Made by a program: the position numbers and the translations under genes
Notes under the pieces: model-generated
What the model was told of the DNA's origin: nothing
The model's database searches: none
What the model saw: the letters and a program-made list of their open reading frames with translations, nothing else
Source of the DNA: Marivirga sericea
Lineage (GTDB): Bacteria > Bacteroidota > Bacteroidia > Cytophagales > Cyclobacteriaceae
NCBI RefSeq assembly: GCF_900177665.1
Contig: NZ_FXAW01000007.1
Span: forward strand, 124,001-188,000
DNA length: 64,000 nucleotides
Direction: 5' to 3'
Shown here: one piece after another, positions 47,987 to 64,000 of the stretch
Layout of the letters: the number at the start of each line of letters is the position of its first letter
Numbering within the stretch: the stretch's first letter is position 1

Positions 47987-50900
47987 TATTTTCTTGCTTT
48001 CTACTTTTAAGTTGACCTCGTAAACGCCATCCTCTATTTTTCGATAGCTAGCATCTGTCATTCTATTGTCGTACAAAGTGATTTCCTTAAACCAGTCATC
48101 AATTAAATATTTCATGGAATCTGGAACCTGAGGCTCTAAATACTCGAGAAAATCAAGAGAGGTCGGATATGGGGGACCTTTATAGCGATACTCCTCTAGG
48201 AAAGCTCGCATAGCTTTGTTCACATTCTCTTCTCCTATGTAATCCTGTAAAGCAAAAAGGACAACGCTCCCTTTCCCATAATGAATATAACCTTGATTCT
48301 CTACCCTATACAGCGGTAATTCTTTTTCCAATTCACCACTTCTTCCTCTTAAATAACGATTATGATTGTATTTATTAAACTCTCGCATTTTCATAGGATC
48401 ATCGGTTTCATTTTTCATAGTCATTAAAGATGAATATTCAGAAAAGCCTTCACTAAACATAGTGCTTCCTTGCATTGCCGCTCCAATCACTTGATGCGCC
48501 CAATATTGGTGAGCAATTTCATGAGCAATAACCGCGTCTATCACATTATTCTCCGTTTCATCTTCTAAATCAATTACAAATCCAAAAGATTCTGAATAGG
48601 GCATCGTACCCGGGAAGGCTTGGGCAAATGTAGAATATCTGGGAAACTCAATTATTCTACTTTGCTTGTGATAATAAGGACCAAAGTTATCCGTATAATA
48701 TTGAAGTGATTTTCTGATAGCTGATTGCATTTTAGGCACATTTACCTCATGCTTTTTATCATAGTAAACTTCAATATCTACATCATTCCACTTTTCTCTG
48801 GAAACCTCAAATCGTGCAGAAATGAACGAATAAAAATTCATAGACGGATGATCTACTTTGTAATGAAAATACTTTCTACCATCTTCTTCCCATTCTCTCA
48901 ATAAACTTCCTGGGGCTATGGCAATTTGATCTGACGCTGTAGAAATCACAGTTTCTACCTCAATGAAGTCTGACAAGCCATTCGTTAAATAGTTTTTATC
49001 GCAAGCAGGTCCACAATTTTCTTCTAAAGCAGGCATCCGCTCTTTTTCAGGCAAATCATATTTTTTACGAGTATTATTGTCGCTTATCTCAGCTCTTGAA
49101 TTGTAGCCTAGAGAAGGTAACACTTCAAAATTATTCAAAAAGGTTCCATTTTCCACTATCGAAGTATTGCTCACCTGATTTTCAAAGCCTTTGGTAATAT
49201 AATTATTCAAAATAGTAGCTCTCATGCTATCTCCGGGCTGAAAGGGCTGAGCCAATTTGTAAATTCGATAATCAAATTCCTCATCTTCAAAAACCAATTC
49301 TGCTCCTTCTATCAAGATCTCTGTGTCCCATGCAGGATTACAGCTGAAATGAAGAGAATCGATCGCTACATCCGTTTCATTTGTAAATAAGACTTCCGCT
49401 TTTACCTTCACATCCCTTTGGTATGGAAAAATATCAATAAAATAGTCAATTTCCCCGATTTTTGGCATGGCCATGTCTTCATACTTTTTATAGGTCTTTT
49501 CATACTCTACTGCTTGCAGTTCTCTTTCATCTGAAGTATCATAAGTATTTATCATTTGAGTATTGTAGAACACAAAGCCCGATAAGGATAACCATAAAGC
49601 AATCACCAAGAAAAAACTAATCTTAAAGGACTTAGGCATGCTCTTTCTCATCAGCTGCACTTTTTCTTTAAAATTGGCTTGAGTTCCTCTTTTCCAAATC
49701 ATAGTTGCCAAAAACAAACAAATCAGTGCAAAGGAAATCCAATAGAAATTGAACCAAATTGAGCTAATTAAAGCTGGCCCAAAGGCATTCATATCGGAAT
49801 AGATGATTCTTGGAGTAGCCCCTAACGAAATCATATTACTTTGAACATCTACAATTAATAGTAAAATATCTAAAGCAAAAATTAAGATTATAGAAATGAA
49901 ATACCCAATATATTTATTACTGACCATGGCGTGAATCAGCACCATCACCATACTGTAAATTATATAATAGCCTAGGTAGCTGATGAAAAAGTCGCTGAAG
50001 TATAAACCTAATTCAATTCTGCTATACCCTGATCCTAATTGATAAATCACAGCACTTAATACAAAGAAGGCATACAGTACAACGGTGATAGCCACCAAAC
50101 TACTCACTTTTGCTATTAATGAAGTAAAAGACTGATGCGGAGTGGCATCTATCACTTCATTGATGTTATTATCCTTATCTCGCCAAATCAATTCCCCACT
50201 GAAGAAAACCACAATGATAATGGTGAACAGACCGGAAACACTAGAAATAACATCCAGCATTTTATAGGTGACCGGATAAGACTGCAATCCGAAATATTCA
50301 AATCCTCCAGCTAAATTTGAAATCAGCATTAACAAACTGAAAATGATCAAAATCTTAAAAGTGGTGCTTTTGATGATACTTAGGAAATTAATATAGAAAA
50401 AGCTTCGAAACTGCTTCAATGATGTTGCCGAAGAAAAGTTTATGGACACTTTTGGCAAAATAAATGGCTCTCTTTTGATTGCCTTCTCCTTCTTTTCTGC
50501 TTTTACTTTTTTATTTTTTTGTTGGAAGCTAAAACTAAAATAAGAGGCTAGAAGAATAATCAAGCCTACTCCAAACCAAAGCAACCTATTGTAAAGTAGA
50601 ATGGGAGTCAACTGCAATCCTAATGAATTCTTCTCCACTGGCGTATAATACTTCGACATAAAGGAATAAGTCCTGATGCCAAACGTATCTAAAAGTGCTG
50701 CCATGCTCTCGTTTTCAATGTCTGACATTAAGGTTCCGGATATAATATAGGCAACTATAACCGCCAATGCTCCCACAAATGAGATCACCGTGTTTTTCCA
50801 AATATTCGCAAAAGCAAAAATGATGGCCCCTGCAAAAAACATATTGGGCAAGACTATGAAAAAGTAGTTATTGATAAAGGAAGAAAGATAAAAAGCCCCA

Positions 50901-51325
50901 AAACGATCGGCTTCAATCCAGCCAAAAATAGGCGCTAATGCAGAGCCAATCAAGATACCAAGAAACACACCCAACATGGGGACAGTAGCTAGAATTAGTG
51001 CACCAAAGAAGCGACCAAAAAAATAGCCTGCTTTTTTGATGGGCGTACTAAACAATATTTCATTGAATTGATTTTGATAGTCTCGCAAAGCCGCATTATT
51101 AAAAAAGGCAGTAGCTATAATCAGACCAAATATGGTCATCACTCCAGTGTAAACCGCAATGATATGAGGTGCATTCCTGTACACATTACCTATTGAGCCT
51201 CCAATGGTCACGTTGTCGCTGACCACCGCAAAAAAGACCAATAGACCTAACAAAGCCGTGAATATATAAATCATCGGCTGCTTAAAAGTGTACTTTAATT
51301 CTGTTGTAAAAAAGTGTTTAAACAT
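47738..51325 (-). CDS. ABC-2 permease fused to M1-family metallopeptidase
   Basis: A 1195-residue fusion. Residues about 1-600 have two blocks of six helices with ABC-2 permease style loops. Residues about 600-1195 form an M1 aminopeptidase-like domain with the zinc motif HEIAHQYWAHQ near residue 935, then SEGFSE for the third ligand. The spacing from HEIAH to Glu is 19, one more than the usual 18. The peptidase part would face the periplasm. The partner ATPase starts 11 nt upstream. Proteins of this architecture occur in Bacteroidota, and the substrate is unknown. A paralogous remnant lies at 45854. Confidence 0.88.
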   Translation of the reverse strand: MFKHFFTTELKYTFKQPMIYIFTALLGLLVFFAVVSDNVTIGGSIGNVYRNAPHIIAVYTGVMTIFGLIIATAFFNNAALRDYQNQFNEILFSTPIKKAGYFFGRFFGALILATVPMLGVFLGILIGSALAPIFGWIEADRFGAFYLSSFINNYFFIVLPNMFFAGAIIFAFANIWKNTVISFVGALAVIVAYIISGTLMSDIENESMAALLDTFGIRTYSFMSKYYTPVEKNSLGLQLTPILLYNRLLWFGVGLIILLASYFSFSFQQKNKKVKAEKKEKAIKREPFILPKVSINFSSATSLKQFRSFFYINFLSIIKSTTFKILIIFSLLMLISNLAGGFEYFGLQSYPVTYKMLDVISSVSGLFTIIIVVFFSGELIWRDKDNNINEVIDATPHQSFTSLIAKVSSLVAITVVLYAFFVLSAVIYQLGSGYSRIELGLYFSDFFISYLGYYIIYSMVMVLIHAMVSNKYIGYFISIILIFALDILLLIVDVQSNMISLGATPRIIYSDMNAFGPALISSIWFNFYWISFALICLFLATMIWKRGTQANFKEKVQLMRKSMPKSFKISFFLVIALWLSLSGFVFYNTQMINTYDTSDERELQAVEYEKTYKKYEDMAMPKIGEIDYFIDIFPYQRDVKVKAEVLFTNETDVAIDSLHFSCNPAWDTEILIEGAELVFEDEEFDYRIYKLAQPFQPGDSMRATILNNYITKGFENQVSNTSIVENGTFLNNFEVLPSLGYNSRAEISDNNTRKKYDLPEKERMPALEENCGPACDKNYLTNGLSDFIEVETVISTASDQIAIAPGSLLREWEEDGRKYFHYKVDHPSMNFYSFISARFEVSREKWNDVDIEVYYDKKHEVNVPKMQSAIRKSLQYYTDNFGPYYHKQSRIIEFPRYSTFAQAFPGTMPYSESFGFVIDLEDETENNVIDAVIAHEIAHQYWAHQVIGAAMQGSTMFSEGFSEYSSLMTMKNETDDPMKMREFNKYNHNRYLRGRSGELEKELPLYRVENQGYIHYGKGSVVLFALQDYIGEENVNKAMRAFLEEYRYKGPPYPTSLDFLEYLEPQVPDSMKYLIDDWFKEITLYDNRMTDASYRKIEDGVYEVNLKVESKKIKADSLGNETNVPINDWIDIGLFADAEEEDLMFQKRVKIDQEEMDFTFVVDTIPAKAGIDPRHLLIDRVFKDNIKSVKEKLAQ

Positions 51326-53308: not shown

Positions 53309-54574
53309 TTAAACCACCAAATCCAATAAATACTGTTTATCATTCAAGTAATCCCCATAAAAGCCTAAGCGCTTCATATTTTCTAACAACTGCGAGAAGT
53401 CAGCAGAGTTTTTTAATTCTATCCCCACTACTGCCGAGCCCGTTTCTCTTGAATTCTTTTTGGTATATTCAAAATGACTGATGTCATCATCAGGACCTAA
53501 CACCTCCACTACAAATTGCTTTAATGCTCCAGCTCTTTGCGGAAATTTTACTACAAAATAATGCTTTAAGCCTTTGTAGAGCAGGGCTCTTTCTTTAATT
53601 TCTTCAGTTCTGGTAATGTCATTATTACTGCCGCTCAAAACACAAACCACATTTTTGCCTTTGATTTCATCTGCATAATGATCCAATGCAGAAATGGATA
53701 ATGCTCCGGCTGGTTCGGCAACAATGGCGTCCTTATTATACAATTGCAAAATGACATCGCATACTTTTCCTTCCTCCACGGTGATGACTTCAGTTAAATT
53801 TTGCCTGCAGATTTCAAAATTCAAATCCCCCACTTTTTTAACCGCTGCACCATCCACAAATTTTTCAATATGCTTCAAAGTCGTATTCGATCCTTTTTCA
53901 ATAGAAGTTTTCATAGCTGGCGCTCCTGCTGGCTCCACTCCTATGATTTTGGTTTGAGGTGACAATGCCTTAAAAACACTGCTCACCCCAGCTGATAGTC
54001 CCCCCCCACCGACTGGCATAAAGAGATAATCAATAGGATTTTCTGCTTGTTGCAAGATTTCCAGACCCACTGTTCCCTGTCCTTCAACTACTTTAGGATC
54101 ATCAAAAGGATGAATGAAAACAGCCCCAGATTTTTCTTGGAATTGCTGAGCGGCATGAAAAGCATCATCAAAGGTATCGCCCACCAATTCTATCTCCACG
54201 AAATCCTCGCCAAACATTTCTACTTGCGCAATTTTTTGTTTTGGAGTTGGTGCGGGCATGAAAATCCTGCCTTTCACTTCCAATTTTTTGCAAGAAAAAG
54301 CCACTCCTTGTGCATGATTACCAGCACTAGCGCAAACAATGCCTTTATCTAATTCTTCCCGACTAAGGCTACTAATCTTATTATAGGAACCTCTAATTTT
54401 GTAGGAACGCACGGGTTGCAAATCCTCTCGTTTGAATTGAATATTAGCAGCAAACTCTTTCGACAAACCCAAATTGGGAGTTAAAGGAGTTAAAAGTGCC
54501 ACGCCTTTCAGTTTTTGCGCGGCACTTTGTATAGCTTCTATTTTTGGGTAGTATGCTTTTAAAGTAGTTGGCAT
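53309..54574 (-). CDS. ilvA: Threonine dehydratase (biosynthetic)
   Basis: A 421-residue PLP enzyme. The PLP lysine is in SYKIRGSYNKI, the phosphate loop is PVGGGGLSAGV, and SAGNHAQGVAFSCKK is a conserved active-site segment. The C-terminal 90 residues form one ACT-like regulatory domain (LKQFVVEVLGPDDDISHFEYTKKN), shorter than the two-domain E. coli IlvA. It makes 2-oxobutanoate, the first step of isoleucine synthesis. It is the last gene of the ilv/leu cluster. A 334-nt gap with a large palindrome separates it from ilvC, so it may have its own transcript. Confidence 0.93.
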   Translation of the reverse strand: MPTTLKAYYPKIEAIQSAAQKLKGVALLTPLTPNLGLSKEFAANIQFKREDLQPVRSYKIRGSYNKISSLSREELDKGIVCASAGNHAQGVAFSCKKLEVKGRIFMPAPTPKQKIAQVEMFGEDFVEIELVGDTFDDAFHAAQQFQEKSGAVFIHPFDDPKVVEGQGTVGLEILQQAENPIDYLFMPVGGGGLSAGVSSVFKALSPQTKIIGVEPAGAPAMKTSIEKGSNTTLKHIEKFVDGAAVKKVGDLNFEICRQNLTEVITVEEGKVCDVILQLYNKDAIVAEPAGALSISALDHYADEIKGKNVVCVLSGSNNDITRTEEIKERALLYKGLKHYFVVKFPQRAGALKQFVVEVLGPDDDISHFEYTKKNSRETGSAVVGIELKNSADFSQLLENMKRLGFYGDYLNDKQYLLDLVV

Positions 54575-54908: not shown

Positions 54909-55955
54909 TTATGCATTTTCCGGTCTTAACTTTCTGACTGCAGCACCTGCTTGCCACATTTCAGAATTTTTCAATTCATTCAATTCTTTTTCTAATTCTA
55001 CTCTGTAATCGGCTTTTTCGTTGGCGGTTATGGTCAGCTTTGCTTCATTCCCTGTCTCAACCGAATCATATAACTCTTCAAAAACAGGTTTTACTGCATC
55101 TCTGAATTTTTTCCACCAATCCAATGCACCTCGTTGCGCTGTAGTGGAGCAATTAGCATACATCCAGTCCATACCGTTTTCAGCAACCAATGGATATAAA
55201 GATTGCGTTGCTTCCTCCACTGTCTCATTAAAAGCTTCAGAAGGAGAATGACCTTTTTTACGCAGTAAATCATATTGTGCTGCAAATAAGCCTTGGATAG
55301 CTCCCATTAAACTACCTCTTTCTCCCGTCAAATCACTATAAACTTCTTTTCGGAAATCGGTTTGAAATAAATAGCCTGAACCTACTCCTATTCCCAAGGC
55401 TACACATCTTTCCCAGGCTTTTCCGGTAGCATCCTGATGGATGGCAAAACTGGAATTCAAACCTCTTCCCTCTACAAATAATCTTCTTAAGCTAGTGCCC
55501 GAACCTTTTGGAGCTACCAAAATCACATCTACATCTTTGGGAGGAACTATACCAGTTTGATCTTTATAGGTCACCCCAAATCCATGAGAAAAATACAATG
55601 CTTTACCTGGAGTAAGATGCTTTTTCACCATTTCCCATTGTGCTATTTGTCCTGCATCTGATAATAAGTATTGCAGAATTGTACCCTTTTCAGCAGCTTC
55701 TTCTAATTCAAAGAGTGTTTTGCCTGGTTCCCAGCCATCAGCTACAGCTTTGTCCCAACTTTTAGAGCCTTTTCTTTGTCCGACAATCACATTAAAGCCA
55801 TTGTCTTTAAGGTTTAATGCCTGTCCTGGGCCTTGCACTCCGTAGCCCAAAACCGTTATAGTTTCGTCTTTTAATACTTCCTGAGCTTTTGCTAAAGGAA
55901 ATTCCTGTCGTGTTACGACTTCTTCTTCTACTGTTCCAAATTTTAGTTTTGCCAT
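54909..55955 (-). CDS. ilvC: Ketol-acid reductoisomerase
   Basis: A 348-residue protein. The NADPH site is VLGYGVQGPGQALNLKDNG, and GQRKGSKSWDKA binds phosphate. Later motifs include LVAPKGSGTSLRRLF, RGSLMGAIQGLFAAQYDLL (with the conserved acidic residue E in DLTGERGSLMG) and the C-terminal KARI domain. It converts acetolactate and acetohydroxybutyrate to dihydroxy-acids in valine and isoleucine synthesis. It is 214 nt downstream of ilvN, with repeats in the gap, so read-through is likely but not certain. Confidence 0.96.
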   Translation of the reverse strand: MAKLKFGTVEEEVVTRQEFPLAKAQEVLKDETITVLGYGVQGPGQALNLKDNGFNVIVGQRKGSKSWDKAVADGWEPGKTLFELEEAAEKGTILQYLLSDAGQIAQWEMVKKHLTPGKALYFSHGFGVTYKDQTGIVPPKDVDVILVAPKGSGTSLRRLFVEGRGLNSSFAIHQDATGKAWERCVALGIGVGSGYLFQTDFRKEVYSDLTGERGSLMGAIQGLFAAQYDLLRKKGHSPSEAFNETVEEATQSLYPLVAENGMDWMYANCSTTAQRGALDWWKKFRDAVKPVFEELYDSVETGNEAKLTITANEKADYRVELEKELNELKNSEMWQAGAAVRKLRPENA

Positions 55956-56169
55956 TATTTTAGATTTTAGAGTCTAGATTTTAGAACCTAGACGGTTGAT
56001 TTAATTCTTATTTTTATACATCTTCTACTGTTCTATTTTTTAAATCACCGGTCAGACGCTTTATGCGTCAGACCGAGATTCTTACCCATTCCCCCTTTGG
56101 GGGTTAGGGGGCTTACAGTTCGACCTTTGGTGTCGTCCCCGTTATTAATTATCAATTCGTAATTATTAA
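55956..56169. repeat. Repeat-rich spacer between ilvN and ilvC
   Basis: It holds GTCTAG/CTAGAC inverted pairs (55973-55994), a hairpin with 11-bp arms and one mismatch (56049-56075, CGGTCAGACGC with GCGTCAGACCG), and a G/C run CCCCCTTTGGGGG with TTAGGGGGC. The pieces look like fragments of dispersed intergenic repeats. No gene is seen. Confidence 0.6.
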
Positions 56170-56703
56170 TTACAGTCTCGAAGCTTGCTCCACTTCCGTA
56201 AAATAGTCTTGAAATTCCTTCATCGGTTTAGAAATTGAAATTCTACCAGATCGAACAAATTCGAGAATACCATGTGGCTTTAATTGCTCAAATAATTCCT
56301 GTGTTTCTTCCTTGAAACCTGTTTTTTCAATAATGGTGAAGTCAGGTTCCACTGCCAGCAAACGAGCATGATGTTTCCGCACAATATTTTCCACTTCTTT
56401 TGTTTGTGACAATTGCTTAGTCGGCATTTTATATAATGCCATTTCTTGATACACTATGCCATCATTCTTATGATAAAAAGCTTTGAAAACATCCACTTGC
56501 TTTTCAATCTGCTTCACAATTTTTTTTATTTTATCCTCCTCAGAACTTACCACAATAGTATAGCGATGAATATCTTTCACTTCACTTTCTGAAGCGGTTA
56601 TGCTCTCAATATTGATATGCCTACGGGTGAAAATGGTAGTCACCCGGTGCAGAATTCCAATAAGGTTTTCTGTATAGATTGATAAAGTGAATTGTTCTTT
56701 CAT
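56170..56703 (-). CDS. ilvN: Acetolactate synthase small (regulatory) subunit
   Basis: A 177-residue protein with an N-terminal ACT domain: FTLSIYTENLIGILHRVTTIFTRRHINIESITAS (residues about 4-37), the valine-binding region. A C-terminal ALS small-subunit domain follows (VEPDFTIIEKTGF, then FVRSGRISISKP). It stimulates IlvB and brings valine feedback. It lies 102 nt after ilvB, in a spacer with CTAGA repeats. Confidence 0.92.
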   Translation of the reverse strand: MKEQFTLSIYTENLIGILHRVTTIFTRRHINIESITASESEVKDIHRYTIVVSSEEDKIKKIVKQIEKQVDVFKAFYHKNDGIVYQEMALYKMPTKQLSQTKEVENIVRKHHARLLAVEPDFTIIEKTGFKEETQELFEQLKPHGILEFVRSGRISISKPMKEFQDYFTEVEQASRL

Positions 56704-56805
56704 ACTTAAGATATTTAGATAGTAGAGTCTAGAATCTAGACTATGACCTCTTAATTTCAGATTCTTATTTCTAGACTCTAGGTTCTAGTCTCTAGGTTCT
56801 ATTTT
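56704..56805. repeat. CTAGA-repeat spacer between ilvB and ilvN
   Basis: A 17-base palindrome AGTCTAGA-A-TCTAGACT (56726-56742) and the repeated words CTAGGTTCTA and TCTAGACTCTA (56771-56800). The same motif family appears in the ilvN-ilvC spacer. No gene is seen. Confidence 0.65.
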
Positions 56806-58533
56806 TTATTCCAGTCTTATTTCAGAAACTGAAGCACCTGTCGGAATCATTGGGAAAATATTATTCTCTTTCCCCACCATTACTTCAAGTAAAAAGCTTC
56901 CTTCATGCGATAAAAAGCGATGAATACTATCTTCTAATTTGTCTCTTTCCGTTACTTTCTCTGACTCAATCCCGTATCCTTTTGCAATCATCTGAAAATC
57001 AGGGTTTACCATGTCTACTGAAGAATATCGCTTCTCAAAAAACATATGCTGCCACTGCCGCACCATTCCTAGATACTCATTATTTAATAGCAAGATTTTC
57101 ACATCAACCTTGGTTTCGAAAATAACACCCAGTTCCTGTATGGTCATTTGAAAACCACCATCTCCTATCACGGCAATTACTTGACGGTTTGGAGCAGCAA
57201 ACTTAGCCCCGATTGCAGCGGGCAGGGCAAAACCCATGGTACCCAAACCGCCTGAAGTCACATTACTTTTCCAATTCGCATATTGATAATAGCGCTGTGC
57301 TACCATCTGATGTTGGCCCACATCCGTCACGATGATGGCATTGCCCCTAGAAATATTAGAAATATGTTTGATGACTTCCCCCATGCTCATGGGCTCATCT
57401 GCTTGAGGATTTAATTCATCTTTGATTACTTTTTCATCCTCCTGAGCATTCAGTTCATTAAATCTAGCCAACCATTCACCATGTTGATTCTCATTTGCTT
57501 TTTCTAATAAAGCCGTCAGTGATTCTTTGCAGTTCCCTAATACAGGCACATTTGCCTCCACATTTTTATTGATTTCAGCAGGATCAATTTCTAAGTGAAT
57601 GACCTTTGCTTGCTTTGCATATCTGCTTACATCACCTGTTACTCTATCATCAAAGCGCATTCCCACGGCAATCAATACATCACATTCATTTGTTAGAATA
57701 TTGGGCGCATAATTTCCATGCATACCCAACATTCCCACATTTAAAGGATGTGAAGTGGGCAATGCAGATAAGCCCATGATAGTCCAGGCTGCAGGAATGC
57801 CTGTTTTCTCTACAAAATCCTGAAATTCTTTTTTAGCATTGGATAAAAGCACTCCATGCCCGAAAAGAATCAGAGGCTTTTTCGCTGAATTGATTAATTC
57901 TGCCGCTTGATCTAATGCTTTTTCGCTTAATTTAGGATTAGGCACATAGCTCCTTATTTGATCGCAAGTTTGATAATCTTCAAATTCAGCCTTTTCAAAT
58001 TGCGCATCTTTTGTAATATCGACCAACACAGGTCCAGGTTTTCCACTTTTGGCTATATAAAATGCTTTTGCCACTGCTGCAGGTATATCTTCAGCTTTTG
58101 TTACTTGGATATTCCATTTAGTTACCGCCATCGAAATACTTACAATATCGGTTTCCTGGAAAGCATCCGAACCTATCATTTTACCCGGCACTTGCCCCGT
58201 TATGCAAACCATCGGGGTAGAATCCAACTGAGCATCTGCTAAGCCGGTTATTAGATTTGTAGCCCCCGGACCAGAAGTAGCCAAACAAACACCTACTTTT
58301 CCGGAGATTCTTGCAAACCCTTGGGCAGCATGTGTTGCACCTTGCTCATGACGCGTCATGATGTGCCTGATTTTTTCTTTTTGATCAAATAAAGCATCAT
58401 AAACCGGCATGATGGCACCGCCAGGATAACCGAAAAGTGTTTCCACTCCTTCACGGATTAGGCAATTCACCAGAGCCGCTGCACCGCTCATGGTTGTTTT
58501 CGTTTTTTGTGATTTAGTGGCTACTGTTTCCAT
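56806..58533 (-). CDS. ilvB: Acetolactate synthase large (catalytic) subunit
   Basis: A 575-residue ThDP enzyme. The catalytic Glu lies in IMTRHEQGATHAAQGFAR. The ThDP/Mg motif is VIGDGGFQMTIQELGVIFETKVDVKILLLNN (split here by position, about 450-480). FAD-site and substrate segments are LIAVGMRFDDRVTGD and GGLGTMGFALPAAIG. It forms acetolactate from pyruvate and acetohydroxybutyrate with 2-oxobutanoate. It starts 1 nt after ilvD ends and is followed by ilvN. Confidence 0.96.
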   Translation of the reverse strand: METVATKSQKTKTTMSGAAALVNCLIREGVETLFGYPGGAIMPVYDALFDQKEKIRHIMTRHEQGATHAAQGFARISGKVGVCLATSGPGATNLITGLADAQLDSTPMVCITGQVPGKMIGSDAFQETDIVSISMAVTKWNIQVTKAEDIPAAVAKAFYIAKSGKPGPVLVDITKDAQFEKAEFEDYQTCDQIRSYVPNPKLSEKALDQAAELINSAKKPLILFGHGVLLSNAKKEFQDFVEKTGIPAAWTIMGLSALPTSHPLNVGMLGMHGNYAPNILTNECDVLIAVGMRFDDRVTGDVSRYAKQAKVIHLEIDPAEINKNVEANVPVLGNCKESLTALLEKANENQHGEWLARFNELNAQEDEKVIKDELNPQADEPMSMGEVIKHISNISRGNAIIVTDVGQHQMVAQRYYQYANWKSNVTSGGLGTMGFALPAAIGAKFAAPNRQVIAVIGDGGFQMTIQELGVIFETKVDVKILLLNNEYLGMVRQWQHMFFEKRYSSVDMVNPDFQMIAKGYGIESEKVTERDKLEDSIHRFLSHEGSFLLEVMVGKENNIFPMIPTGASVSEIRLE

Positions 58534-58534
58534 T

Positions 58535-60214
58535 TTATAAATCGGTTATACATCCCAAAGATGCTGATGATACCAGCTTGCTATACTTCCTTAAGCTTCC
58601 GCTCACATTTCGCTCAGGCTTTGCAGGAGATTTGTCCTTTCGTTTTTCCCATTCCTTTTCATTCATCAATACACTTATGGAATTTTCCACGGCATCAATT
58701 CTAATGCGGTCTCCATTCTCCACATAAGCCAATGGACCATTATCAAATGCTTCCGGGGAAATATGCCCTACCACAAAACCGTGGGTTCCTCCAGAAAATC
58801 TACCATCTGTAATAAGCGCTACTTTCTTCCCTAAACCTGCTCCCATAATAGCAGCAGTCGGCTTTAACATTTCAGGCATGCCGGGGCCTCCTTTTGGACC
58901 TTCATAGCGAATGACCACTACATCGCCCTCTTTTATTTCACCTTTGGCAATTCCATCATTCGCCAAAAATTCTCCATCATAAACTCTAGCAGTTCCTTCG
59001 AAAATCTCTCCTTCTTTCCCTGTGATTTTAGCTACAGCTCCTTCAGGTGCTAAATTGCCTTTCAAAATCCTGAGGTGACCTGAGCTTTTGATAGGATTTT
59101 TCACTGAATGAATGATGTCTTGCTGCTCTCCTAAACCTTGAACATCTTTATAATTTTCAGCTAAAGTTTTACCTGTTATAGTCATGCAATCTCCGTGAAG
59201 AAGCCCTTCCTCCAACATCATTTTCATCACTGCAGGAATCCCACCACTTTTATGAAGATCTTCCATCAGGTATTTGCCGGAAGGTTTTAAGTCTGCCAGA
59301 TAAGGAGTTTCTGCACTGATTCGAGCGAAATCTTCCAATGTTAAATCGATTTCAAAAGCATTAGCTACTGCTAATAAATGTAAAACCGCATTGGTAGATC
59401 CGCCCAAAACTGTAATCAACCGTATGGCATTTTCAAATGATTTCTTAGTGACTATATCCCGTGGCTTCAAATCCTTTTCAATCAAATTCTTTATGGCTAA
59501 CCCTGCCTCTGCACACTCTTCCCTCTTGTCCTCACTTTGAGCAGGATTGGATGCCCCATAAGGCAAACACAATCCCAAAGCTTCAATAGCCGAAGCCATG
59601 GTATTGGCTGTGTACATTCCTCCGCAGGCTCCAGGCCCAGGGCAAGCATTCGCTACTACTCCTTTAAAATCTTCTTCTGAAATAGTATTGGCTTGCTTCT
59701 TCCCCAAAGCTTCAAAAGCCGAAACCACATCTAATTTTTCTCCATTATGACAACCTGGTGCAATAGTACCTCCATAAATAATCATCGAGGGACGATTCAA
59801 TCTACCCATGGCTAACAATGCACCCGGCATATTTTTATCGCATCCTGTAATCGCTATCATAGCATCATAAGCTTGCGCATTTACCACTGTTTCCATGGAA
59901 TCAGCTATGATATCACGTGAAGGAAGAGAATAACGCATGCCATTGGTTCCCATTGAAATGCCATCGCTGACTCCAATTGTGTTGAAAATCAATCCTACCC
60001 ACTCATAAGATTTGATGCTTTTCTTGACCTCCAAGGCCAAATCATTCAAATGCATATTACAGGGATTACCTTCAAAACCAGTGCTTGCAATGCCTATTTG
60101 GGGTTTTTCTAAGTCTTTATCAGACAAACCAATGGCATGTAACATGGCCTGAGCTGCCGGCTGCGTTGGGTCTTGGGTTACTGCTTTGCTATATGGATTT
60201 AATTCCTTCGCCAT
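58535..60214 (-). CDS. ilvD: Dihydroxy-acid dehydratase
   Basis: A 559-residue Fe-S dehydratase. Cluster cysteines are in [32 protein letters not shown] and [17 protein letters not shown]. Other motifs are [19 protein letters not shown], with the catalytic serine, and a C-terminal [15 protein letters not shown]. It turns dihydroxy-acids into 2-oxo-acids for valine and isoleucine. It overlaps ilvE by 1 nt, and ilvB follows at once. Confidence 0.96.
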
Positions 60215-61104
60215 TATATGATGGTTTGATTTTGTAAATCGTTAAATAATACTTTTTGTCGGTAGATATGATAGATGCTCTGACCTATAGAATCTTCCCA
60301 ACTCAATGGAAAGATCGTATCATTTACTTGAGCGATTGGCGCAATTTCAGCTGCAGTTCCAGTAAAGAAAGCTGTATCAGCTTCCAATAATTGTGCTTTA
60401 GAAATAGGCTTCTCCGTCACCTTGATTTCATGCTCTTTGCAGATCTCCAAAACAGTTTGACGAGTAATTCCTGGCAAAATAGTCCCTCTGGAAGGCGTGA
60501 AAAGCTCTCCATTTTTCTCTATAAATATATTAGCTCCAGAACCTTCTGCAACATGCTGTGTGTAATCCAATAAAATAGCTTCATCAAAACCTAACTTTTT
60601 AGCTTCAGTAGTGGCCAGAATTGAGTTGGTATAATGACCTACAACTTTAGCTTCCATATGCTGGGAAGCTGGATGTATACGTTGATATGATGAAATTTTA
60701 GCCTTGATGGGATCATGACCCAAATATTTCTCCCATTTCCAAGCGCATATGAACACATTCACCTCTTCTGTAGGCTGCAGCGCCATATTAGCACCTAAAT
60801 AAACCAACGGTCGGATATAGGCATCGGTCAAATTATTGCGATCTAATAATTCATAGCTTATGCTGACTAATTCCTCTACTGAATACGGCATTTTGATATG
60901 CATTAAGTCAGCCGATTTGTGTAAACGCTCATAATGCTCATGGGCTTTAAAGATGTTAAAACCTACATCATTTTTATACGCGCGGATACCTTCAAACACC
61001 CCATTTCCGTAGTGCAGGGTTTGTCCATACAAGCTCGTTTGCGCATCTTTGGCATGTTGCCATTCTCCATTGAGGAATGCCAGGGTTTTATCATTATAAT
61101 ACAT
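60214..61104 (-). CDS. ilvE: Branched-chain amino-acid aminotransferase
   Basis: A 296-residue fold-type IV PLP enzyme. Motifs are [19 protein letters not shown], the PLP lysine region [23 protein letters not shown], and [16 protein letters not shown], then GTAAEIAPI. It exchanges amino groups between glutamate and the branched 2-oxo-acids. It is the first gene behind the attenuator and overlaps the ilvD start by one base (TAATG), so translation of the two is coupled. Confidence 0.95.
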
Positions 61105-61146
61105 AGCCGTTTCGATTTAGATTTCCATTTATTTTTTTTAAAGAAA

Positions 61147-61176
61147 AAGCCATCCTGTTTTAGCAAGATGGCTTTC
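61147..61176 (-). terminator. Attenuator terminator before ilvE
   Basis: On the minus strand AAAGCCATC (61176-61168) pairs with GATGGCTTT (61155-61147), a 9-bp stem with a 12-nt loop, then TTCTTT. It ends about 43 nt before the ilvE start and 25 nt after the leader ORF. It is the terminator half of the attenuator. Confidence 0.88.
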
Positions 61177-61209
61177 TATCATTTCATTTTTGATAAAAGC
61201 TCATCTTGC
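61164..61209 (-). promoter_or_regulatory. Antiterminator pairing of the ilv attenuator
   Basis: The minus-strand word GCAAGATG (61209-61202, the last codons and stop of the leader ORF) is exactly complementary to CATCTTGC (61171-61164). The latter shares bases 61168-61171 with the 5' arm of the terminator stem, so the two pairings exclude each other. A ribosome stalled at the Ile codons leaves the first word free and favours read-through. A ribosome reaching the stop covers it and favours termination. Confidence 0.83.
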
Positions 61210-61272
61210 CATTTTGAAAAAAATGACGCTGATGTTAATAATGACAATATTTATGATTTCGAATTTTCTCAT
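61201..61272 (-). CDS. Leader peptide of the ilvEDBNC attenuator
   Basis: A 23-codon ORF too short for usual gene calls. It starts ATG with its A in the last base of the leuB stop codon (TAATG) and begins MRKFEIINIVII. The middle has 7 isoleucine codons (ATC, ATA, ATT, ATT, ATT, ATC, ATT) and 2 valine codons (GTC, GTC) and no leucine. The last codons GCA AGA TGA make one arm of the antiterminator. The bias to Ile/Val, the absence of Leu, and the following terminator and ilvE gene make it a regulatory leader. The peptide itself needs no function. Ribosomes finishing leuB can restart here, so its translation is probably coupled to leuB. Confidence 0.87.
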   Translation of the reverse strand: MRKFEIINIVIINISVIFFKMAR

Positions 61273-62354
61273 TACGCACTTACTGTTACCAGCTTTTTAA
61301 TTTCTTTTACTACAAAATCACCTACTTCTTTGGTGTTTTTTGGATTTTCCTTTTGGATGTCTTCAGTAGCAAATCCTGCTTTTAATGAATTCGCTACTGC
61401 ATCTTTTATAATTTGACTTTCTTCTTTCAATTCAAAAGCATATTCCAATAACATGGCAGCTGATAATATTGCACCTAGTGGATTCGCAATCCCTTTTCCT
61501 GCCGCTTGAGGATAAGAACCATGAATTGGCTCAAACAAACTGCTTTTAGTTCCTAAAGAGGCAGAAGGCAATAAGCCTAAGGACCCGGAAATAACAGAAG
61601 CTTCATCCGTGATGATGTCCCCAAACATATTTTCAGTCAAGACCACGTCAAAATCTTTCGGATTCTGAATGATTTTCATGGCAGCATTGTCCACAAACAT
61701 AAAATCAAGTTCAACCTTCGGATACTGACTTGATATTTCTTTTACCGTTTCTCTCCACAGACGTGAAGTAGCTAAAACGTTCGCTTTATCCACTAAAGTC
61801 AGTTTCTTCCTTCTGTTCTCCGCAGCCTTAAATGCCAGATGAGAAATCCGTTCAATTTCAGTTTTGGAATAAACACAGCTATCAAAGGCAGTGTTTCCAT
61901 CTTCTGATCTACCTCTTGGCTCACCAAAATAGATGCCTCCAGTTAATTCCCTGAATACCACAAAATCGGTTCCTTTAATGATGTGTTCTTTCAAAGGAGA
62001 TATGGGCAAAAGGGCATCATAACTACTCACAGGTCGCACATTGGCAAAAAGTCCTAAATTTTTACGCATCTTCAATAATCCCTGCTCAGGTCGAACTTTT
62101 GCGTTTGGATCATTATCATATTTAGGATCGCCTATGGCACCAAATAAAATAGCATCTGCTGATTTGCAACTTTCCTCCGTAGCTTCCGGAAAAGGATTCC
62201 CTGTAGCATCAATTGCTGCAGCCCCAATTAATGATTCAGCATATTTAAACTGATGACCAAAAGTTTCAGCAACTGCATTCAAGGCTTTCACTGCCTCAGC
62301 TGTTACTTCAGGACCAATTCCGTCTCCGGCCAATATTGCTATGTTTTTATTCAT
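61272..62354 (-). CDS. leuB: 3-Isopropylmalate dehydrogenase
   Basis: A 360-residue enzyme of the isocitrate/isopropylmalate dehydrogenase family. It shows IAILAGDGIGPEVTAEAVK, the substrate loop LRKNLGLFANVRPV-type segment (RKNLGLFANVRP), RELTGGIYFGEPRG, KANVLATSRLWRE, and TENMFGDIITDEASVISGSLG (residues about 237-257). It oxidises 3-isopropylmalate in leucine synthesis. The stop codon overlaps the leader peptide start. Downstream transcription passes the ilv attenuator. Confidence 0.95.
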   Translation of the reverse strand: MNKNIAILAGDGIGPEVTAEAVKALNAVAETFGHQFKYAESLIGAAAIDATGNPFPEATEESCKSADAILFGAIGDPKYDNDPNAKVRPEQGLLKMRKNLGLFANVRPVSSYDALLPISPLKEHIIKGTDFVVFRELTGGIYFGEPRGRSEDGNTAFDSCVYSKTEIERISHLAFKAAENRRKKLTLVDKANVLATSRLWRETVKEISSQYPKVELDFMFVDNAAMKIIQNPKDFDVVLTENMFGDIITDEASVISGSLGLLPSASLGTKSSLFEPIHGSYPQAAGKGIANPLGAILSAAMLLEYAFELKEESQIIKDAVANSLKAGFATEDIQKENPKNTKEVGDFVVKEIKKLVTVSA

Positions 62355-62367
62355 ATAACTTATTCCT

Positions 62368-62955
62368 TTAAGCTAGCGATTGCTCGTAAGCTTCGATTTC
62401 ATTCTTTTTATTCAACAGAAAATCTATATCATCAAAGCCATTTTGCAGGCAATATTTCTTATAGGAGTTGATTTCAAAGCTTTCGGTTAAAGATGAACCC
62501 ACCAAGCTGATTTCTTGCTCATTTAAATCAATTTGCAATTTGGCTTCCGGCCTATTCTTTAAAATTTGAAAAACTTGTGCTAAGAAATCATCTGTTACTT
62601 GCACAGGCAAAAGACCATTATTTAACGCATTATTTTTAAAAATATCTGCAAAGAAACTGGATACGACTGCTTTAAAGCCATAATCCACTAGTGCCCAAGC
62701 TGCATGTTCCCTGCTGGATCCACAGCCAAAGTTCCTTCCTGCCACTAAAACATCTCCTTTATTACCAGCCTGATTCAATACAAATTCAGGATTGGGAGAA
62801 CCATCTTCAAAATACCGCCAGTCGCGGAAGAGGTTCTCACCGAACCCTTCGCGGCTGACGGATTTCAGGAAACGAGCGGGAATAATCTGGTCGGTATCTA
62901 CATCCTCATAAGGAAGCAGTACAGCCTGACTATTTAATGTGTTAAACTTTTCCAT
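62368..62955 (-). CDS. leuD: 3-Isopropylmalate dehydratase small subunit
   Basis: A 195-residue aconitase-swivel protein. It has [20 protein letters not shown] at the N-terminus and the substrate motif [18 protein letters not shown], with [17 protein letters not shown] later. It forms isopropylmalate isomerase with LeuC. It ends 13 nt before leuB starts. Confidence 0.95.
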
Positions 62956-63068: not shown

Positions 63069-64000
63069 TCATTTCATTAATTCCCTCACATCCGAAATTT
63101 TACCTGAAAGTGCAGACGCTGCCGCAGTCAAAGGACTCGCCAATAAAGTTCTGGCACCTTGTCCTTGTCTTCCTTCAAAATTCCTATTAGATGTACTTAC
63201 ACAATATTTTCCTTTCGGCACTTTATCCTCATTCATGCCCAAGCAGGCCGAACAGCCCGGTTGTCTTAATTCGAACCCTGCTGCTTCCAATATTTTATCT
63301 AAGCCCTCAGCTCTGGCTTGTTTTTCTACTTGTCTTGAGCCCGGTACAATCATCGCTTGCACATGATCTGCCTTCTTCTTGCCTTTTACCAAATCAGCTA
63401 CTAAACGCAAATCTTCAATTCTACTGTTCGTGCAACTTCCGATGAAAACGTAATCTACATGATGACCTAGTAATTGCTTTCCGCCTTCCAAATCCATGTA
63501 TTTCAGTGATTTTTCAAGACCGGAAGTGGTTTTTCCATTTGGAGCAGGAATATCTTTAGTAATACCGATTCCCATTCCAGGATTAGTACCATAAGTAATC
63601 ATTGGCTCAATTTCTTCCGCATTGAAATAATATTCCAAATCAAACTGAGCATCATCATCTGATTTCAAAGATTTCCATTCGGCTACTTTTCTATCCCATT
63701 TTTCGCCCTTAGGTACAAAAGGCCTTGATTTCAAATATTCAAAAGTGGTTTCATCCGGAGCAATTAATCCTCCTCTAGCTCCCATTTCAATGCTCATATT
63801 GCAAATTGTCATGCGGGCTTCCATTGATAGTTTTTCAATGGTAGAACCACAAAATTCAATAAAATGTCCTGTTCCGCCTGCTGCCGTTAGCTTTGAAATG
63901 ATATGTAAAACGATATCTTTAGAAACTACTCCAGGATTTAATTCACCATCCACTTGAATTTTTAATGTTTTAGGCTTTTTCTGCAATACGCATTGTGTCG
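63069..64000 (-). CDS. leuC: 3-Isopropylmalate dehydratase large subunit, 5' partial
   Basis: The C-terminal two-thirds of LeuC. The frame runs past the window edge (residues [14 protein letters not shown] at the border match an internal family segment), so the TTG near 63986 is not a start. Visible motifs include [21 protein letters not shown], the first cluster cysteine in [14 protein letters not shown], and the other two in [13 protein letters not shown]. The family end [13 protein letters not shown]-type is present ([19 protein letters not shown]). It works with LeuD. Confidence 0.95.

Follow-up and report, generated by a model that had tools for sequence, protein, structure and literature searches.

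Prediction of an isoleucine/valine transcription attenuator at the leuB stop codon of Marivirga sericea

Leader ORF and alternative helices between leuB and ilvE

In a 64,000-nt stretch of Marivirga sericea DNA (contig NZ_FXAW01000007.1, positions 124,001 to 188,000; hereafter the window, numbered from its first letter), the 167-nt gap between leuB and ilvE on the minus strand very probably holds a ribosome-mediated isoleucine/valine (Ile/Val) transcription attenuator with three RNA arms, placed inside a leuACDB-ilvEDBNC(A) gene run. An attenuator of this kind had been put forward in an original prediction made from the letters of the window, and this reading was supported by a leader found across the family, by helices that exclude each other and by arms that co-vary.

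The leader is a 23-codon open reading frame (ORF; 61201..61272, minus strand like all elements of the switch) that reads MRKFEIINIVIINISVIFFKMAR and then TGA (61203-61201). leuB ends in GCG TAA, and the leader ATG (61272) takes the last base of that TAA. The seven Ile codons, two Val codons and absence of leucine (Leu) codons confirmed in the minus-strand sequence the predicted Ile/Val-rich, Leu-free ORF starting on the leuB stop. Arm A (61195..61211), the 5' arm of the antiterminator, includes the leader stop and forms with arm B (61161..61176) a duplex of 16 pairs and one bulged A (61211-61195 with 61176-61161; -22.0 kcal/mol). Through 61164-61176, arm B can instead pair with arm C (61145..61157), the 3' arm of the terminator, giving a 13-bp stem (61176-61164 / 61157-61145) with a 6-nt loop that leads into GCTTTTTCTTT (hairpin -17.5 kcal/mol). 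Because 13 bases of B are common to both helices, the two are mutually exclusive. A T-rich tract, TTTTTCTTT (61140..61148), overlaps the end of arm C and marks, as judged from sequence, where the attenuated RNA should end, and the distance from the terminator stem to ilvE is 40 nt. The original prediction had recognised both helices in shorter form: its 8-nt exact complement (GCAAGATG, 61209-61202, and CATCTTGC, 61170-61163, with 31 nt between) is real but belongs to a helix of 16 pairs, and its terminator does run into the T-rich tract but on a stem of 13 pairs rather than 9.

The gap therefore combines the features by which an attenuator is recognised, namely a leader ORF enriched in codons for the product amino acids (9 of 23 are Ile or Val), a terminator sequence between the leader and the first structural gene, and an antiterminator that excludes this terminator and whose 5' arm would lie beneath a ribosome that has reached the leader stop. 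In the mechanism that we propose, RNA polymerase moving past leuB would transcribe the leader ORF and next arms A, B and C. When Ile- or Val-tRNA is scarce, a ribosome would halt on the Ile/Val codons and leave A free to pair with B once B emerges; with A:B formed, C would be without a partner, no terminator would appear, and ilvE and the following genes would be transcribed. When Ile and Val are both plentiful, the ribosome would reach the leader stop inside A and cover this arm, so that B:C would pair and transcription would end about 40 nt ahead of ilvE. The leu genes precede the switch and would be untouched by it. Since the leader ATG lies on the leuB stop and no TAnnTTTG motif occurs in the preceding 200 nt, ribosomes that complete leuB probably go on to translate the leader, and the element would act as an internal valve on leu read-through and not as a switch behind its own promoter. 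Sequence and comparison among relatives provide the leader ORF with its bias in codons, two helices that exclude each other and have evolved jointly, a stop codon within A and the lack of a promoter motif. From these features we infer leader translation, coupling to leuB, termination in the cell and the response to Ile/Val.

Controls in the window and the genome indicated that this combination is unusual. The exact A..B word pattern occurred at a single place in the 4.74-Mb genome, and a six-frame survey of the window gave 373 ORFs with an ATG start and a length of 15-35 codons, among which this leader alone had at least 9/23 Ile plus Val. Both strands of the window together contained 19 terminator-like hairpins; three of these had an upstream arm pairing at ≤ -12 kcal/mol, and only that of the attenuator had a leader in which the fraction of Ile, Val and Leu (I/V/L) exceeded 0.32. 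None of 200 dinucleotide shuffles of arm A matched the real A:B pairing of the window, and the 145-nt attenuator region had a folding z of -3.3 against shuffles.

Conservation and joint change of the three arms

Seven of the ten Marivirga genomes keep a leuB orthologue, and the same seven keep ilvD. Leader, A:B and B:C were found between leuB and ilvE in all seven loci, so that no close relative retaining these genes has lost the Ile-rich ORF or the two pairings, a loss that the original prediction had named as one result that would speak against it. The weakest A:B of the seven was that of locus L008 (p 0.06 against shuffles). The other three genomes of the genus (G001, G002 and G007) lack a leuB orthologue, having only a 35-36% paralogue, and also lack ilvD; branched-chain amino acid synthesis has apparently been lost in them, G007 being only 86% complete.

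A comparison across relatives, proposed together with the original prediction, revealed the I/V/L-rich leader and the three-arm logic family-wide, with the arms changing together. In the family sample, ilvD was present in 88 of 96 genomes, and 87 loci from 86 of them were studied (G038 and G097 were excluded, their main ilvD match lacking a start). An I/V/L-rich leader with A:B and B:C lay upstream of ilvD/ilvE in 78 of the 87 loci, of which 72 passed automatic thresholds and six were recognised by eye. The 72 include L071 and L106, re-anchored by hand after the first detector had picked a wrong or second hairpin; two further loci (L077 and L094) were cut off by contig ends. With a fixed detector that required a T-rich tail and allowed no hand corrections, 72 of 87 real regions were positive, whereas the 87 reverse complements gave no positive and the 87 dinucleotide shuffles a single one; dropping the A:B condition gave 72, 4 and 2, respectively. 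The quantitative comparisons below use a set of 83 loci, comprising the seven of Marivirga and 76 others. Loci added by eye were L003, L004, L007, L105, L111, L120, L149, L150 and L152, whereas L066 and L067 were dropped as copies of L002 and L005. Leaders were called from ATG starts (in L152 also TTG), the choice among several ATGs being arbitrary.

The joint evolution of the arms was evaluated by exchanging them between loci. Arm A paired with its own B at a mean of -16.66 kcal/mol, compared with -10.69 kcal/mol for the B arms of other loci (83 loci; SD of permuted means 0.37, lowest of 2000 permutations -12.04). The difference persisted in the 53 loci whose last ten B bases differ (own -16.08, swapped -10.51; 0 of 2000 permutations as low), and the B:C swap over all 83 loci gave -17.78 against -8.80, again with 0 of 2000 permutations as low. 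At single B positions, A-B-C triples occurred as G-C-G, A-T-A, T-A-T and C-G-C. When arm A was shuffled in place, the real pairing reached p ≤ 0.01 in 41 and p ≤ 0.05 in 67 of the 83 loci. The number of B bases common to both helices had a median of 9.

This tracking of B by A, together with I/V/L-rich leaders at 78 of 87 loci, is left unexplained by a plain terminator that ends the leu operon, with ilvE read from its own promoter and the Ile-rich ORF incidental. It is true that the hairpin and T tract could terminate alone, that some relatives show a promoter motif in the same gap, and that a weak sigma-70-like site lies within the leader (61238-61211, 9 of 12 matches). However, the motif found in the relatives precedes the leader, and the scan that found the sigma-70-like site gave a total of 22, below the 28.4 obtained in shuffles. 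The stretch of 40 nt that separates the terminator from ilvE was inspected by eye only. We consider this explanation very unlikely.

The T-rich tail bears in turn on whether the leader might control the translation of ilvE, by hiding or freeing its start, rather than transcription. A leader with alternative helices serves that purpose in other systems, but B:C enters a T tract in the window, and the detector that was positive in 72 of the 87 regions demanded such a tail. Moreover, the T tract closes the unit, which precedes ilvE in some genomes and ilvD directly in others and is thus independent of the start of any one gene. Translational control is accordingly judged highly improbable.

A riboswitch or T-box, binding a metabolite or tRNA and not using the ORF as a sensor, was considered as well, since alternative helices ahead of a biosynthetic operon are the usual appearance of a riboswitch. 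No Rfam family matched anywhere in the 64-kb window at its gathering score, arm B had 53 different 10-mers in the 83 loci, and no conserved aptamer was seen among them; what recurs instead is the coding of Ile, Val and Leu, which makes an element of this type scarcely credible. Across the 83 leaders (1778 residues), Ile made up 22%, Val 16% and Leu 12%, or 50% for the three together. The I/V/L excess peaked about 5 to 16 codons upstream of the leader stop and was nearly absent at the last two codons; it thus covers positions at which stalling would keep the ribosome off arm A. The stop codon of the leader overlapped arm A in 62 loci, arm A lay wholly behind the stop in 11, and a ribosome on the stop, with an assumed footprint of -15 to +12, would contact arm A in 82 of 83. 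These stop positions also bear on the idea that a small hydrophobic protein, functional in its own right, is the product of the ORF, as the hydrophobic character of the peptide and its intact frame in all seven Marivirga loci might suggest. Against this, the leaders of different genera share little beyond I/V/L runs, and arm A is overlapped by the stop codon in 62 loci; we give this idea almost no weight.

The element may extend beyond the family of the window. The detector gave candidates in 17 of 37 loci outside the family (at the level of order and class), and in a further 16-locus set it gave candidates in 12, four being places already in the main set. A:B was weaker than -9 in the wider-sample candidates L059, L161, L188 and L190, so that this pairing is weak in some outside loci. 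Among Flavobacteriales (Kordia, Aureitalea), Ile-rich leaders such as MKQVIINIIVIIMNST and MTKLINIIIISIITIQ, together with terminators, were seen before ilvE-ilvD in L054, L055, L058, L059 and L064.

Two loci of the sample carry additional structure. In L071 (the same place as L020; genome G023), the leuB-ilvE gap contains MKNIEIISLVIITVILMIAR with a hairpin and then MVNQVVMIAVIDIMYPLIIISG with a second, strong hairpin and T tract (-25.5 kcal/mol); these two successive leader-terminator units are a possible tandem attenuator. In L005, extra DNA between the terminator and ilvE has more hairpin-forming stretches, CTGGTTTGTG...CACAAACCAG and AGCCTGTG...CACAGGCT.

Folding with a ribosome in place

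We further evaluated whether the RNA is predicted to switch when a ribosome occupies the leader. In the window, the terminator probability was 0.17, 0.07 and 0.34 and then ≤ 0.03 as the A-site moved from codon -14 to codon -7 (range 0.02-0.34; Ile or Val at six of the eight positions), compared with 0.97 for a ribosome on the leader stop and 0.84 without a ribosome. Full-length equilibrium folding of the 83 loci likewise predicted the terminator in all 83 with a ribosome on the stop and in 82 without one (the exception being L003, 0.00). As full-length equilibrium folding is weak as a general proof outside the nearest relatives of the window, the RNA was also folded before C is made. Under this condition, 80 of the 83 loci had at least one stall position with P(A:B) above 0.5, and 63 loci also had A released at the stop (P < 0.2). 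These models suggest that switching by folding is clear in the window and plausible for the other loci, with transcription order helping.

Several results weigh against the attenuator reading. At equilibrium, a stall gave an upstream-paired B in just 26 of the 83 loci, and in the loci that fail there, switching depends in these models on A:B forming ahead of the transcription of C. Before C is made, A:B also exceeded 0.5 without any ribosome in 56 of 83 loci (0.94 in the window), whereas equilibrium folding of the same ribosome-free RNA gave the terminator in 82 of 83. In the same folding, shuffled A arms paired with B as well, with mean probabilities of 0.42-0.44 compared with 0.72-0.73 for real arms (codons -16 to -10), and when A was shuffled in place the real pairing missed p 0.05 in 16 of the 83 loci. 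Arm A had its own B as best partner in only 10 of 83 loci and within the best three in 34, because relatives carry similar B arms. Arm A lay wholly before the leader stop in ten of the 83 loci, and seven of the 87 family loci (L074, L080, L081, L090, L110, L119 and L129) were without the element. A simple consensus terminator scan of the window reported 10 sites, compared with 8.4 expected from shuffles, and omitted the attenuator hairpin, probably because its stem uses part of the T tract. Lastly, a trp-type 1:2 protector hairpin, suggested by the single-sequence fold of the window, lacked support family-wide, with 181 of 2000 permutations in the locus swap as low.

Placement at the leuB stop and gene context

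The position of the leader relative to leuB distinguishes Marivirga from the rest of the family. The leader ATG lay at -4 to +5 nt of the leuB stop in six of the seven Marivirga loci, overlapping it in L002, L003, L004, L005 and L007 and following it by 5 nt in L008, whereas in all 12 non-Marivirga loci with leuB in front it lay 21-99 nt past the leuB stop. A start codon at or near the upstream stop and kept in relatives, as expected of a translationally coupled pair, is therefore found in six of seven loci. The remaining one, L006 (G009:C2), belongs to a close Marivirga relative and has a different leader 67 nt past leuB, with promoter-like TATATTTG at -24; this may represent a replacement or the regain of a promoter version. 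Placement at the leuB stop, which the original prediction had noted for the window, thus held in the window and five of the six other Marivirga loci and broke down in L006.

Promoter motifs were compared using TAnnTTTG, given as the Bacteroidetes -7 box in passages of PMC9723704. Of the 83 loci, 20 had this motif at a distance of 12-75 nt upstream of the leader ATG, compared with three in a control interval of equal width and a mean of 4.1 after shuffling. Among the 12 loci from outside Marivirga in which leuB precedes the leader, an exact TAnnTTTG was present in three (L068, L071 and L083), and the best site was TAnnTTTA in five more. No TAnnTTTG was found within 200 nt before the leader in the six leuB-stop Marivirga loci, the window included. 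A family-derived promoter matrix, trained on 20 of the loci, gave these six best scores of -9.9 to -2.1, all under the median of 0.4 for shuffled sequence. For the 57 further non-coupled loci outside the training set, the median best score was 5.4; 24 of them exceeded 6.2, the 90th percentile of shuffles, and 49 exceeded 0.4. Eight of the 57 scored only -7.6 to -0.3, and a low score is therefore suggestive only and no proof of a missing promoter.

On this sequence evidence, we somewhat favour translational coupling of the leader to leuB. The coupled state occurs in Marivirga and, by comparison of the loci, has been lost or regained within the genus: in the LeuB tree, L006 falls inside a starred clade with four coupled loci, L007 and L008 are weakly placed, and at least two state changes are forced. 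A single origin of the leuB-coupled state, considered as a candidate history, is not shown by this tree. More tentatively, and with rather more doubt than confidence, we suggest that in Marivirga a switch that stands apart elsewhere, partly with its own promoter, became promoterless and fused to the leuB stop, that its leader senses Ile and Val alone, and that leuB ribosomes feed an internal valve reading both leuB translation and Ile/Val supply.

The codon content of the leaders was compared with gene order. Coupled leaders contained 0, 0, 1 and 0 Leu codons in L002 to L005, one in L007 and four in L008. In the window, Ile and Val rather than Leu would be sensed, which suits leu genes lying in front of the switch; L008 does not fit. 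Across the set, leaders had a mean of 3.07 Leu codons where leuB lies downstream of ilvD (30 loci) and 1.95 where it lies upstream (19 loci), with a Mann-Whitney p of 0.0098 that ignores kinship, and many leaders of the downstream group resemble each other; a comparison of the 34 other loci with the leuB-downstream group gave p 0.051. These values give a hint that leader codon make-up follows the genes under control of the switch.

Enterobacterial attenuators of ilvGMEDA, ilvBN and leuABCD share with this element a short leader rich in product codons and an exclusive antiterminator and terminator before biosynthetic genes. Compared by logic alone, the Marivirga element differs in having three arms, with the leader stop in or near A and no support for a conserved protector hairpin, and the window copy differs in lying inside a leu-ilv run at the leuB stop. 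The enterobacterial likeness drawn in the original prediction consequently stands for the logic, with no family-wide support for a conserved 1:2 protector hairpin.

Among 4227 Rfam families in a permissive search, the lowest E-value belonged to Thr_leader (RF00506; 27.9 bits, E 0.0016, full length, same strand). This family is an amino-acid operon attenuator too, but its gathering score is 55 and the window element is no member; the match may reflect similar codons plus a terminator. Bacteroid-trp RNA (RF01692), a candidate cis-regulatory RNA of Bacteroidetes according to parts of PMC2864571, matched neither at the gathering score nor in the permissive search.

Within the same phylum, leader-peptide attenuation is suspected before amino-acid operons of Flavobacterium psychrophilum, with "strong clues" and with pheA and hisG named among conserved 5' elements in passages of PMC9723704; its main text contains no occurrence of ilv, and those passages showed nothing on an internal, gene-coupled leader. 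Leader-like short ORFs are mentioned for Bacteroides thetaiotaomicron in part of PMC7366714. A parallel in placement is the predicted attenuator of Chlamydia, which has a Trp-rich trpL within an operon, between trpR and the next trp gene (PMC3937554, in part). It concerns another amino acid and phylum, the passages concerned do not mention a leader start on an upstream stop, and they report conflicting claims. Among the papers listed by our literature search, none had a title or displayed abstract that describes Cytophagales ilv attenuators or the coupling of a leader to a biosynthetic gene in front of it. An earlier prediction of ilv attenuators for the phylum is possible in work that treats attenuators of many bacteria (Lopatovskaya 2010, Vitreschak 2004). 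What appears new is the internal, probably leuB-coupled variant without a visible promoter, on a family-wide element.

By sequence, Ile/Val/Leu leader-peptide attenuation is the prevailing arrangement before ilv genes in a large Bacteroidota family, and the window copy matches no Rfam family. As one genus contains both promoterless leuB-stop versions and a promoter-motif version, the feeding of a sensor ORF by an upstream gene is directly measurable there, in a case where leader codon make-up may track the genes behind the switch. If the coupling is true, a sensor peptide would be started by the termination of an upstream biosynthetic gene, and one element would read leuB translation together with Ile/Val supply.

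All genes of the run lie on the minus strand in the order leuC-leuD-leuB, gap, ilvE-ilvD-ilvB-ilvN-ilvC, a 334-nt gap and ilvA, with names assigned by NCBIfam. Upstream of the attenuator are leuB (3-isopropylmalate dehydrogenase, 61272..62354; TIGR00169, 479.8 bits, cut-off 353.2), whose TAA shares one base with the leader ATG, and leuD (62368..62955; TIGR00171, 203.6 bits, cut-off 116.25), which lies 5' of the attenuator and hence beyond its control. leuC (63069..63998) runs off the window and scored 441.2 bits on its in-window part, under the TIGR00170 cut-off of 560.25 because the window edge cuts the gene. leuA lies directly upstream of leuC on the same contig (C24:188479-189639), and no leader-terminator unit was seen before it by eye; the leu genes do precede ilv as originally predicted, but the run is leuACDB and not leuCDB.

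The first gene past the attenuator is ilvE (branched-chain amino acid transaminase, 60214..61104; NF005146, 303.6 bits, cut-off 279). The genes that would follow it in the regulated run are ilvD (dihydroxy-acid dehydratase, 58535..60214; TIGR00110, 748.2 bits, cut-off 618.15), ilvB (acetolactate synthase large subunit, 56806..58533; TIGR00118, 714 bits, cut-off 538.35), ilvN/ilvH (acetolactate synthase small subunit, 56170..56703; TIGR00119, 110.3 bits, cut-off 56.9) and ilvC (ketol-acid reductoisomerase, 54909..55955; TIGR00465, 314.7 bits, cut-off 226.15). ilvA (threonine ammonia-lyase, 53309..54574; TIGR02079, 617.3 bits, cut-off 440.55) has the same direction, and its membership in the ilv transcript is uncertain behind the 334-nt gap.

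On the minus strand, the ilvB-ilvN (56704-56805) and ilvN-ilvC (55956-56169) gaps contain series of short, similar words such as ACCTAGAGACTAGA / AATCTAGACTCTA, which form a degenerate repeat. Elsewhere in the window, a minus-strand hairpin with a T tract at 50894-50936 follows a short ORF, MRLCETIKINSMKYCLVRPSKKQAIFLVASLVH, and has an upstream pairing partner (-16.3 kcal/mol), a combination that is probably due to chance.

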